Part shown: positions 40,275-45,183 of the stretch, in pieces
Position numbering within the stretch: the first letter of the stretch is position 1
Layout: the number at the start of each line of letters is the position of its first letter
NCBI GenBank assembly: GCA_902588595.1
Contig: CACIPT010000004.1
Span: 1 to 57,480 of the forward strand
DNA from: an uncultured Pelagibacteraceae bacterium
Lineage (GTDB): Bacteria; Pseudomonadota; Alphaproteobacteria; Pelagibacterales; Pelagibacteraceae
Direction of reading: 5' to 3'
DNA: 57,480 nucleotides
The notes under the pieces: generated by a model
What the model was told of the DNA's origin: nothing
The model's database searches: none
The model's input: only the letters and a program-made list of their open reading frames with translations
Translations under genes and position numbers: made by a program

Positions 40275-40358
40275 TTAATTCTCCTTTGAATTTTTTTTTA
40301 AATTATTATAAGCAAGATTGATTTGCTATGCAATTTTTTATAGTATTGAACATTGCCA

Positions 40359-41051
40359 ATGATATTTGAACAATTATTCGATACCAAATCTTCAACCTAC
40401 ACTTACATTATATCTAGTGGCAAAGGTAGAGAGGCTTTAATAATCGATCCTGTAATTGAACACACTGAAGAGTACGTAAAAATATTAGAAAAATTAGATT
40501 TAAAATTAGTTAAAGTAATAGATACTCATATACATGCTGATCATATCACTGGATTAAATGAACTAAATAAAAGAACAAACTGTACAAGAATTATGGGAGA
40601 AAAATCTAAATCTGAAGTGATAGATTTAAAAATAAAAGACAACGAAAAAATAAATGTAGAAAATATAGAGCTTAAAGCAATTTATACTCCAGGACATACA
40701 GATTGTTCTTATAGCTATTTAATGAACGATAGAGTTTTTACAGGCGATACTCTTTTAATAAACGGAACAGGAAGAACAGATTTTCAATCAGGAAACTCTG
40801 AAGATGCTTATGACTCTTTATTTAACAAATTATTAAAATTACCAGAAGGTACCTTGGTATATCCGGCTCATGATTATAATGGAAAAAAATATTCAACTAT
40901 TAAAAATGAAAAAAATAATAATCCAAGACTACAAGTTAGTTCAAAAGAAGAGTATGTAGAAATAATGGAAAATCTAAATTTAGAAAACCCCAAAATGATC
41001 GATATAGCTGTTCCGGCCAATTTAAAAGGTCTTACATTAAATCAGATTTAA
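40359..41051 (+). CDS. Persulfide dioxygenase-like metallo-beta-lactamase protein
   Basis: The ORF track starts at a TTG; I use the ATG at 40359 (MIFEQLFD), giving 230 residues. Seen: metal-binding THIHADHITGL, TPGHTDCSYSY, FTGDTLLINGTGRTDFQSG and YPAHDYNGK. GRTDFQSG and the His/Asp set are typical of ETHE1/Blh persulfide dioxygenases, which oxidise glutathione persulfide to sulfite. It sits beside the cysteine-rich ORF and cysE-cysK, so sulfane-sulfur handling fits. Glyoxalase II-type activity is the alternative. Confidence 0.86.
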   Translation: MIFEQLFDTKSSTYTYIISSGKGREALIIDPVIEHTEEYVKILEKLDLKLVKVIDTHIHADHITGLNELNKRTNCTRIMGEKSKSEVIDLKIKDNEKINVENIELKAIYTPGHTDCSYSYLMNDRVFTGDTLLINGTGRTDFQSGNSEDAYDSLFNKLLKLPEGTLVYPAHDYNGKKYSTIKNEKNNNPRLQVSSKEEYVEIMENLNLENPKMIDIAVPANLKGLTLNQI

Positions 41052-41069: not shown

Positions 41070-41097
41070 TTGTTTTTTAAATAACCTTTATTATATT
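41070..41097 (+). promoter_or_regulatory. Possible promoter before the metallothionein-like ORF
   Basis: TTGTTT and TATATT are spaced 16 bases apart. The predicted transcript would begin about at the ATG at 41104, i.e. leaderless, and no ribosome site is seen before that ATG. Read by eye from A+T-rich DNA, so weak. Confidence 0.3.
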
Positions 41098-41103
41098 GGT
41101 TGC

Positions 41104-41223
41104 ATGGCTTGTGAAAATAAATCTTGTAACTGCAAAAATTGCAATTGTGAAGAATGCAAATGTGATGGTAGCAAAGTTTGCACATGCTCCCCTGAATCAA
41201 ATAGTTGTTGTTGTAACAGCTAA
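41104..41223 (+). CDS. Metallothionein-like cysteine-rich small protein
   Basis: A 39-residue ORF too short for the ORF track. It holds 12 cysteines in 39 residues: [23 protein letters not shown] and a terminal CCC. Such CxC and CxxC spacing with no aromatic residue and few hydrophobics is what metal-thiolate cluster proteins look like. It sits between persulfide dioxygenase and cysE-cysK on the same strand, 52 bases after one and 35 before the other. I recognise no exact family (BmtA has a longer, histidine-containing pattern). Zinc, copper or cadmium binding, or sulfur storage, is inferred. Confidence 0.72.
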
Positions 41224-41258: not shown

Positions 41259-41828
41259 ATGAATAATTTTTTAGAATCCATAATTAATAGAGATCCGGCT
41301 GCAAAGTCTAAGTTAAGTGTAATATTAACTTACCCAGGTGTAAAAGCAGTTTTTTTTCATAGAATAGCTAATTTTTTTTCTATTGCTAAGTTAGATTTAT
41401 TAGCAAGAATGATATCTCAATTTTCAAGATTTTTAACTGGAATTGAAATCCACCCAAAAGCAAAGATAGGCGAAAATTTATTTATTGATCATGGAATGGG
41501 TGTTGTAATCGGAGAAACTTCTGAAATAGGAAATAATGTAACAATATATCATATGGTAACTTTGGGAGGAATTTCTCCTAGCATTGAATCTAATGAACAA
41601 AGAAATGTTAAAAGACATCCTACATTAAAAGATAATGTTGTTGTTGGATCCGGTGCGCAAGTTTTGGGTCCAATTGAAGTTGGAAAAAATGCAAAAATTG
41701 GAGCAAATGCAGTTGTAACAAAAGATGTTCCTGAAAATGCAGTTATGGTTGGAATACCTGCTAAAAATGTTGGAACCACAACAGAAGAATTTAAACCTTA
41801 TGGTATAACCCCAATTAGTGGTAAATGA
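41259..41828 (+). CDS. cysE: Serine O-acetyltransferase
   Basis: Left-handed beta-helix acetyltransferase of 189 residues, the short SAT form lacking the long N-terminal helical domain of E. coli CysE. Seen: [20 protein letters not shown] with the catalytic histidine, [23 protein letters not shown], and [20 protein letters not shown]. It makes O-acetylserine from serine and acetyl-CoA for the next enzyme, cysK, whose start overlaps its stop by 4 bases (ATGA). Confidence 0.94.
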
Positions 41829-42826
41829 AAAACTCTCAAAACAACTTCATAGAAGGAATTGGAAACACTCCATTGATTAAGCTTAAAGCGGCTTCTGAAA
41901 TAACTGGATGTAATATTTACGGAAAAGCTGAATATCAAAATCCTGGTGGTTCAGTAAAAGATAGAGCTGCGCTTGCTTTAATAAAAGATGCTCAAGATAA
42001 AAAGTTAATTTCAAAAGGTGGAACTATTGTTGAAGGAACAGCAGGAAACACGGGTATTGGCTTATGTTTAATTGGAAATTCAATTGGATATAAAACTATA
42101 ATTGTAATGAATGACAATCAAACTCAAGAAAAAAAAGACATGCTTAAAAATATTGGAGCAGAATTAAAATTAGTTCCACCAAAACCATATAAAGATGATG
42201 GAAATTTTGTAAAAGTTGCAGCAAGATTAGCAGACGAATTAAAAAGTTCTAACAACCATGGGGTGGTTTGGGCTAATCAATTTGATAATACTGCTAACGC
42301 TAAAGGACATTATGAAACAACTGGACCTGAAATTTGGAACCAGACCGATGGCAAAGTTGATGGTTTTGTTTGTTCTTCTGGAACTGGAGGAACAATTGGA
42401 GGGGTTAGTAGCTACTTAAAAGAAAAAAATAAAAATATAAAAATTTATTTATCAGACCCAACAGGTTCGGCTCTTTACAATTATATTAAAAATGGAGAAT
42501 TAAAAAGCGAAGGTGGATCTATTACAGAAGGAATAGGATCTAGTAGAGTTACAGCAAATTTTGCTGAAGCAAAAATAGATGGAGCTTTTTCAATAAGTGA
42601 TCAGGAATCATTACCTATACTTTATGATTTAATTCAAAACGAAGGTTTAAGTTTAGGAACAAGTTGTGGCGTAAATATTGCTGGAGCAATAAGATTAGGG
42701 AAAGAATTGGGTCCCGGAAAAACTATTGTTACAATTCTTTGTGACAAATCAGATAAATACAACTCTAAGATGTTTAATAAAAAGTTTTTACAAGAAAAAG
42801 GTCTTCCATTTCCAAGTTGGATTTAG
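41825..42826 (+). CDS. cysK: Cysteine synthase
   Basis: PLP fold-type II enzyme, 333 residues. Seen: GNTPLIKL near the start, PLP lysine in [28 protein letters not shown], and the phosphate loop [10 protein letters not shown]. It forms cysteine from O-acetylserine and sulfide. It overlaps cysE by 4 bases. Beside persulfide dioxygenase it closes the local sulfur loop. The C-terminal part is normal for this family. Confidence 0.94.
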
Positions 42827-43461: not shown

Positions 43462-43788
43462 ATGTCTGTTGTTCAAAAACTAATTGATGCTCAAGATAAT
43501 CAAGATTTAAAAGCATATAATGAAGTTCTTAGTGAAGATTATTATTGGTTAAGACACTCAACTGGAGAAAAAGTTCCCAGAGATGAATTAAGTAAATGGT
43601 TAATTAGCCCTGATGCTCCAAAAACTGAAAGTTCTCGTATCATTTATGAAAATGATGAAATAGGAGTGGCTCATTATTTTATTTCTTTTAAAGACGGTTC
43701 AAGACAAGCTGTTCTTGTAGTCTACATTATAAAAGATGGTAAAATAATTCGATCTGAAACTGGCGCTACTAGTATGCCAAAACAATAA
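43462..43788 (+). CDS. NTF2-like (SnoaL-type) protein, first of a tandem pair
   Basis: 108 residues: helical N-terminus VQKLIDAQDNQDLKAYNEVLSEDYYW then strands (IGVAHYFISFKDGSRQAVLVVYII) as in the cone-shaped NTF2 barrel. The next gene is a clear paralogue with matching order (RHSTGEKVPRDEL and MHSSGNKLGKQD, DGKIIRSETGAT and DGKIAYMETGAT). Such proteins are small enzymes or ligand binders. Substrate unknown. Confidence 0.75.
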   Translation: MSVVQKLIDAQDNQDLKAYNEVLSEDYYWLRHSTGEKVPRDELSKWLISPDAPKTESSRIIYENDEIGVAHYFISFKDGSRQAVLVVYIIKDGKIIRSETGATSMPKQ

Positions 43789-43803: not shown

Positions 43804-44124
43804 ATGTCAATAATAGAAAAAATGACCAAAATTATTAATGAAGGAGATGTAGCTGCAGGTGAACAAATGATACATGATGATTATCAGTTTTTAATGCATT
43901 CATCTGGAAATAAACTAGGCAAACAAGATATATTAAAATGGCTTGGTATGAAAGACGTTCAAAAAGAAAAAGTAAGAGTACTTTTTGAAAATGATGAAGT
44001 TGGATTTGAACATGCGTTTGTAAGTTACAAAGATGGTAATAAAGAAGCGGTTATGACTTATTACAAATATAAAGATGGAAAAATTGCTTACATGGAAACT
44101 GGAGCAACAAAACTTCCAAAGTAA
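43804..44124 (+). CDS. NTF2-like (SnoaL-type) protein, second of the tandem pair
   Basis: 106 residues, paralogous to the preceding gene over its whole length, so a local duplication is likely. The pair may form a heterodimer. Ribosome site AAAGGAA. Its stop overlaps the VOC gene start by 1 base (TAATG). No catalytic set can be named. Confidence 0.75.
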   Translation: MSIIEKMTKIINEGDVAAGEQMIHDDYQFLMHSSGNKLGKQDILKWLGMKDVQKEKVRVLFENDEVGFEHAFVSYKDGNKEAVMTYYKYKDGKIAYMETGATKLPK

Positions 44125-44510: not shown

Positions 44511-44846
44511 ATGACTAATATTACAGCTTATATAATTTTAATAGTCGCAGTAGTTTTAGGAACTGCATCTAATGGTTTTGCTAAAGGGGCTCAAGGTTTT
44601 ACTTTATTAGTTCCAAGCATTTTAACTGCAGTAACTATAGTTGGATGTATGTACACATTATCGCTTGTTATGAAAACAATTCCTGTTGGTATTACTTATG
44701 CATCATTTGCAGGATTATGTATTATTGCAACTACAATAGTTGGAATGTACAAATTTAACCAGATGCCTGATTTTTATACAATTGTTGGCCTTGTTTTAAT
44801 TATAGCTGGAGTTTTAATCGTTAACTTATTAGGAAAAGCTAATTAA
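44511..44846 (+). CDS. SMR-family transporter-like protein, first of a pair
   Basis: 111 residues with four hydrophobic helices and the SMR ending IVGLVLIIAGVLIVNLLGK. The proton- and drug-binding glutamate of the first helix (E14 in EmrE, A-E-V-I-G-T) is absent: the matching segment reads VAVVLGTASNGFAKGAQG, with no acidic residue. PVGITYASFAG matches helix 3. A drug antiport role is doubtful. It is 1 base from its paralogue; the two probably form a heterodimer. Confidence 0.82.
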   Translation: MTNITAYIILIVAVVLGTASNGFAKGAQGFTLLVPSILTAVTIVGCMYTLSLVMKTIPVGITYASFAGLCIIATTIVGMYKFNQMPDFYTIVGLVLIIAGVLIVNLLGKAN

Positions 44847-44847
44847 T

Positions 44848-45183
44848 ATGAAACCGCTCACTGGATACATTTTTTTATTTGTTGCTATATCATGTGGAAT
44901 AGGCGCAAATAGTTTTGCAAAAATATCTGATGGGTTTTCAAAATTAACACCAACTGTTGCTTGTTTGCTTTTAATGTGTGTAACTATGTTTTCACTTGCA
45001 AAAGGAATGTATGCAATTCCAGTTGGTTTTGCGTATGCCACTTACAGTGCAGTTACAGTTGCATCAATATTAATATTTGGAATTATTAAATATAACCAAA
45101 TGCCTAACATGTATGGTTTAATTGGAATTATTTTAATTATAGCTGGGGTCTTAATTGTAAATTTACTAGGTAAAGTAAATTAA
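44848..45183 (+). CDS. SMR-family transporter-like protein, second of a pair
   Basis: 111 residues, paralogue of the gene before it (same length, same LIIAGVLIVNLLGK end). First helix FVAISCGIGANSFAKISDG has no acidic residue in the membrane either, so the essential SMR glutamate is lost in both partners. Helix 3 reads PVGFAYATYSAV. It may flip a lipid or move a neutral compound as EmrE-like ArnE/ArnF do; this is inference. Confidence 0.82.
   Translation: MKPLTGYIFLFVAISCGIGANSFAKISDGFSKLTPTVACLLLMCVTMFSLAKGMYAIPVGFAYATYSAVTVASILIFGIIKYNQMPNMYGLIGIILIIAGVLIVNLLGKVN

Follow-up and report, generated by a model that had tools for sequence, protein, structure and literature searches.

In the window, by which we mean the whole stretch of 57,480 nucleotides that was analyzed, a short and very cysteine-rich open reading frame (ORF) begins 52 nt past the stop codon of an MBL-fold gene and ends 35 nt ahead of cysE, with all of these genes on the forward strand (Table 1). 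The translated peptide lacks phenylalanine, tryptophan and tyrosine, spaces its cysteines as C-x-C and C-x-x-C and has a CCC end. The original prediction had described a 39-residue, 12-cysteine frame open from ATG to TAA and located between a persulfide-dioxygenase gene and cysE-cysK on one strand, and both the frame and its placement were reproduced. Chance does not readily give such a peptide: when the window was copied 40 times by a Markov model, no ATG ORF of 25-80 aa held more than 7 cysteines. The product of the MBL-fold gene has PDB entry 4ysb as its best match (1.8e-70) and also matches human ETHE1 (4chl, 1.1e-53), while no NCBIfam name is reached above cut-off; by these matches it is a persulfide-dioxygenase/ETHE1-like protein.

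Table 1. Coordinates of the peptide gene, its predicted signals and the genes on either side within the window.
Feature	Positions	Strand	Details
MBL-fold persulfide-dioxygenase/ETHE1-like gene (upstream neighbor, context)	40353..41051	+	PF00753; PDB 4ysb, 4chl
-35-like box TTGTTT	41070..41075	+	From sequence; family columns -34 to -27
-10-like box TATATT	41092..41097	+	From sequence; family columns -12 to -8
Metallothionein-like peptide gene	41104..41223	+	Encodes 39 aa with 12 Cys; positions include the stop codon; purifying selection
Terminator-like hairpin UAGUUGUU-GUUGU-AACAGCUA, then U-rich AUUGUUUAUUU	41202..41222	+	Spans the CCC codons and stop codon
cysE, serine O-acetyltransferase (downstream neighbor, context)	41259..41828	+	TIGR01172 above cut-off (NCBIfam)
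cysK, cysteine synthase A (context)	41825..42826	+	NF007989 above cut-off; 4-nt overlap with cysE

Homologues of the peptide are numerous within SAR11, the most abundant bacteria of the ocean. A matching ORF occupies the same place in nine other same-genus genomes among the 61 near genomes, and a profile search of 399 sampled genomes of the window's genus (Pelagibacteraceae, SAR11) returned homologues at E<1e-6 in 80. At the looser threshold of E<=0.1 this search reported 94 genomes, 14 of them with weak matches (such as L009) that were rejected as homologues because stops lie inside the frame. Further out, the profile was positive in 25 of 248 genomes of the family sample, including two of a second genus, and in 36 of 297 of the order sample, and the window's own genome was the only positive in the class (385 genomes) and phylum (399 genomes) samples. 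Phages and plasmids gave no match to the peptide by tblastn, the peptide and its profiles found no match in Pfam, NCBIfam or the PDB, and a search of the locus against Rfam was also negative. Judged from titles, abstracts and selected passages, the few publications found to name metallothionein together with SAR11 or Pelagibacter do not appear to describe such a gene. The resulting collection holds 92 distinct peptides of 36-44 aa from 114 distinct loci, with cysteine making up 30% of residues. Loci with names place the hosts in the Pelagibacteraceae (SAR11), for the most part under names of the single-cell isolate type, and at 54 of the 80 named cysE loci the peptide ORF is situated 139-169 nt upstream of cysE. 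Homologues with conserved cysteines beside cysE, which the original prediction had asked for, were thus found in many related genomes. On this comparative evidence the ORF is a functional gene, belonging to a previously unnamed family that is restricted to SAR11.

The peptide is not universal, even within the genus. Mapped onto a 168-row tree of cysE, its presence and absence require only 5 changes, compared with a mean of 29 after shuffling, which indicates a trait that is inherited and occasionally lost. All nine of the most complete genus genomes examined are without the peptide gene (loci L201-L209), and in 7 of these 9 cysE lies beside a divergent VOC/glyoxalase-like gene. In the same nine loci cysE is mostly not beside a persulfide-dioxygenase-like gene, and the operon seems to have been rearranged within the genus. 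Two complete genomes of the family (G423 and G425, genus g5) have no cysE match at E<=1e-20. One peptide-less clade (L069, L080, L092 and similar loci) carries a TATATA box approximately 8 nt ahead of the start codon of cysE. The arrangement looks as though the ORF had been excised from the interval separating promoter and cysE, and it suggests that cysE itself may be read there from a leaderless mRNA.

The cysteine architecture is strongly maintained wherever the peptide occurs. Six N-terminal core cysteines and a C-x-C...CC end are kept in 85 of 93 peptides, 11 or 12 cysteines are present in 89 of 93, and 74 of 93 have no aromatic residue (F/W/Y). Among the first 20 positions after M1, the most constant residues other than cysteine are N5 (91/92) and N12 (82/92). 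The comparison of synonymous and non-synonymous change that had been proposed as a check came out clearly, with the frame under strong purifying selection: the whole ORF has a dN/dS of 0.22 (bootstrap 0.18-0.29) over 23 closest pairs that are independent of each other, against 0.018 at cysteine codons and 0.34 at all other codons (0.26-0.47). Neutral simulations in which cysteine codons were either held or free gave non-cysteine values of 0.51-1.41, and since the observed 0.34 falls below all of them, the peptide itself must matter and not merely its cysteine codons. Small size, a cysteine share in the region of the usual 20-30%, C-x-C and C-x-x-C motifs, few aromatics and selection on the cysteines, which are sequence features of the metallothionein class, are all present.

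The signals ahead of the gene are constant in position. A spacer of 16 nt separates TTGTTT from TATATT in the window, and with this placement the transcript would be expected to start on the peptide ATG. An alignment of 92 loci anchored at the ATG shows TATAT in columns -12 to -8 (1.6-1.7 bits) and the consensus TTGTTTTT in columns -34 to -27 (0.9-1.8 bits), and the best -35 site starts with TTG at 78 of 92 loci. A distance of 4-8 nt from the end of the -10 box to the ATG is seen at 78% of distinct loci, compared with 16% for Markov sequence. Promoter scores taken as a sum of matches barely exceed the Markov null (a fraction of 0.41 of null sites reaches the observed median), hence it is the fixed position of the promoter that is informative. 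No Shine-Dalgarno-like motif occurs within 20 nt of the ATG at any of the 92 loci. Together with the placement of the -10 box, this makes a leaderless peptide mRNA well supported across the family, with a 5' end that is predicted from the promoter, and the leaderless transcript suggested for the window alone can now be extended to its relatives. The gene would be a clean case of a small gene that is expressed without a leader and conserved within one bacterial genus.

At the other end of the gene, the predicted hairpin of the window has a minimum free energy of -8.6 kcal/mol vs. -3.2 kcal/mol for synonymous-codon versions (p 0.03), and the family peptides have a mean z of -1.85 in the same comparison. 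Among 49 distinct tails in the classes CCCxx*, ENCCCNK* and TSCCC*, 36 have the hairpin at p<=0.05, and it is absent from the three CCCC tail classes (0/18). Pairing was evaluated per tail class, as mixing tails of different register gives no covariation signal; it exceeds 1000 of 1000 shuffles, with G-C, C-G and A-T exchanges at one pair, although the sequences are related and the excess is therefore support and not proof. The hairpin of the window is not picked up by a strict pattern scan in which a minimum of 3 G-C pairs is required. The stretch 3' of the hairpin is T-rich (T 0.51 vs. 0.38), and we read the structure as a putative terminator or damper of a short peptide transcript.

The explanation that we consider probable is that the gene encodes a metallothionein-like metal buffer expressed from its own short leaderless mRNA. 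With near-consensus -35 and -10 boxes, transcription would begin at the ATG, and the hairpin over the last codons and the stop codon would in most lineages end or dampen the transcript before cysE. The cysteines of the peptide, in their C-x-C, C-x-x-C and CCC spacings, would enclose several soft metal ions (Zn, Cu(I) or Cd) as a cluster, and the peptide would thereby buffer or sequester metal ions in the cytosol. Cysteine genes adjoining a thiol-rich product are consistent with a metallothionein, but not decisive. Several observations speak against this role, namely that the peptide matches neither PF02069 nor any other Pfam, NCBIfam or PDB entry, that no metal sensor or operator adjoins its gene, that the constant neighbor is a cysteine-biosynthesis gene and not a metal gene, and that many SAR11 genomes do without the peptide, including the nine most complete of the genus mentioned above.

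Comparison with characterized metallothioneins yields likeness in architecture without kinship in sequence. MymT of Mycobacterium tuberculosis and the fungal Cu-metallothioneins, which bind Cu(I), are short, rich in cysteine and equipped with C-x-C motifs, and so is the SAR11 peptide; it is likened to them by general description, with no sequence match to either in the libraries searched (Pfam, NCBIfam and PDB). Eleven cysteines is the count of a four-metal cluster, for example that in the alpha-domain of vertebrate metallothionein, and the eleven core cysteines of the SAR11 peptide equal this number by analogy. With SmtA, BmtA and PmtA (PF02069) the peptide shares small size, cysteine richness, C-x-C and C-x-x-C motifs and a presumed metal-thiolate cluster. 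Unlike those proteins, however, the SAR11 peptides hold 11-12 cysteines in 36-44 aa, usually have no histidine and are too short for the zinc-finger part. The PF02069 profile matched neither the peptide (E<=10), nor 10 family members, nor anything in the window's genome, and in 20 relatives nothing rose above the cut-off that a control genome passes. The label "metallothionein-like" therefore stands for the cysteine architecture, whereas sequence kinship to known bacterial metallothioneins was not found, and most likely this is a new SAR11-restricted family that is metallothionein by architecture and not a member of PF02069.

The metal context is sparse. A P1B heavy-metal ATPase (TIGR01525) was not detected in 18 genus genomes, with and without the peptide gene, nor was an ArsR-type sensor (PF01022, HTH_5) in the same 18, with 14 of 14 controls positive in each search. 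Although a negative search does not prove that such genes are missing, the outcome agrees with peptide buffering in which no dedicated sensor takes part. No metal sensor or operator was seen beside the peptide gene. Cyanobacterial metallothioneins of PF02069 are paired with an SmtB/ArsR repressor, though not universally (PMC7387436); the SAR11 gene differs from the SmtA type in having no divergent SmtB-type repressor and no ArsR match in those 18 genomes. SAR11 bacteria have been described as having few detoxification systems in a screen with Pfam profiles (PMC4161860), and a conserved peptide too small for annotation cut-offs and without an entry in Pfam or NCBIfam would escape such counts. 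A sizeable share of SAR11 lineages may, our results suggest, buffer metals by peptide where pumps and sensors go undetected. The gene offers a directly testable tie between metal handling, cysteine supply and the scarce reduced sulfur of the ocean.

The position of the hairpin raises the possibility of a second function. The leaderless gene might be both a new SAR11 metallothionein and a translation-sensitive leader of the cysteine operon, with translation tuning read-through into cysE-cysK so that cysteine supply matches the demand of a product that is 30% cysteine; one promoter would then set metal buffering and cysteine supply together, in genomes where neither metal ATPases nor ArsR sensors were detected. 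Constraint at the level of the peptide combined with a hairpin whose folding would be prevented by a ribosome translating the last codons points in this direction, as do the ORF losses after which a -10 box stands immediately ahead of cysE, as though the promoter were common to both genes. However, the hairpin is missing in several lineages, and a plain terminator fitted into the tight space of a compact genome would give the same picture, so we hold this dual role to be unlikely, albeit the least so of the alternatives. It overlaps with the metal-buffer reading, and the probabilities that we attach to the readings do not sum to one.

Less likely still is some other thiol protein, such as a sulfane-sulfur carrier for persulfide dioxygenase, a store of cysteine or a redox buffer served by MsrB or peroxiredoxin. 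The neighborhood invites the idea, with persulfide-dioxygenase-like, peroxiredoxin and cysE-cysK genes nearby and, in genus g8, msrB (by eye). Fixed C-x-C and C-x-x-C spacing and the very low dN/dS at cysteine codons point, however, to a geometry that a store or a redox sink would not need. The persulfide-dioxygenase link drawn in the original prediction is borne out by the ETHE1-like neighbor in the window, but it is not constant: in genus g8 the peptide gene adjoins not the dioxygenase but cysE-msrB or msrB alone (msrB being named by eye from its translation). At one locus (L047, genome G589) the order is peptide-cysE-msrB-like, with the dioxygenase missing.

A purely regulatory leader ORF for cysE-cysK, with an inert peptide, seems very improbable. 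Under this model scarce cysteinyl-tRNA would slow the ribosome at the cysteine codons and the hairpin would be blocked, allowing transcription to enter cysE-cysK. A leaderless cysteine-rich ORF with a CCC end directly before these genes is what it calls for, and the stability of the 3' hairpin in most CCC-class tails, its excess of pairing over shuffles and the U-rich stretch 3' of it are all in favor of the model. A precedent exists in the leaderless polycysteine sORFs of mycobacteria (Canestrari et al., 2020, cited via PMC9031893; PMC4633059, Fig. 7), which resemble the SAR11 ORF in being leaderless, cysteine-rich, ended by a cysteine run and upstream of cysteine or sulfur genes. The mycobacterial sORFs are cis attenuators, whereas in the SAR11 ORF cysteine codons are conserved at fixed spacing across the whole frame and not in one control run, the remaining residues are conserved as well, and the gene persists without cys genes. 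Selection was found not to be confined to control codons, non-cysteine dN/dS being lower than in every simulation that kept cysteines only, and the gene is not tied to the operon. At L137 (G226:C5:16179-17495) an intact peptide gene follows the dioxygenase with cysE and cysK gone from the locus, through an apparent deletion that joins the peptide gene to the gene that usually follows cysK, and no close cysE was found elsewhere in that genome (66% complete). At L192, in the second genus, the intact gene is 3 nt ahead of an msrB-like gene with TTGAAA/TATAAT kept, and no cysE was found in the genome (G1391, 80% complete). The layout of a putative terminator overlapping cysteine codons is seen in most lineages but is absent in those with CCCC tails. 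In one SAR11 isolate cysE and cysK were unresponsive to sulfur limitation (PMC5069961), although that strain may lack the peptide gene. As for a spurious ORF or assembly artifact, which the shortness of the unlisted ORF and the AT-rich genome might bring to mind, this is refuted by 92 distinct homologues that come from independent assemblies yet share position and promoter, and by strong purifying selection, and we give it practically no credence.

Elsewhere in the window, two tandem pairs of small genes were recognized by eye on the forward strand downstream of cysK. The first encodes similar SnoaL-like small proteins (43462-43788 and 43804-44124), and the second, according to the translations, small multidrug-resistance-like membrane proteins whose genes are one base apart (44511-44846 and 44848-45183).
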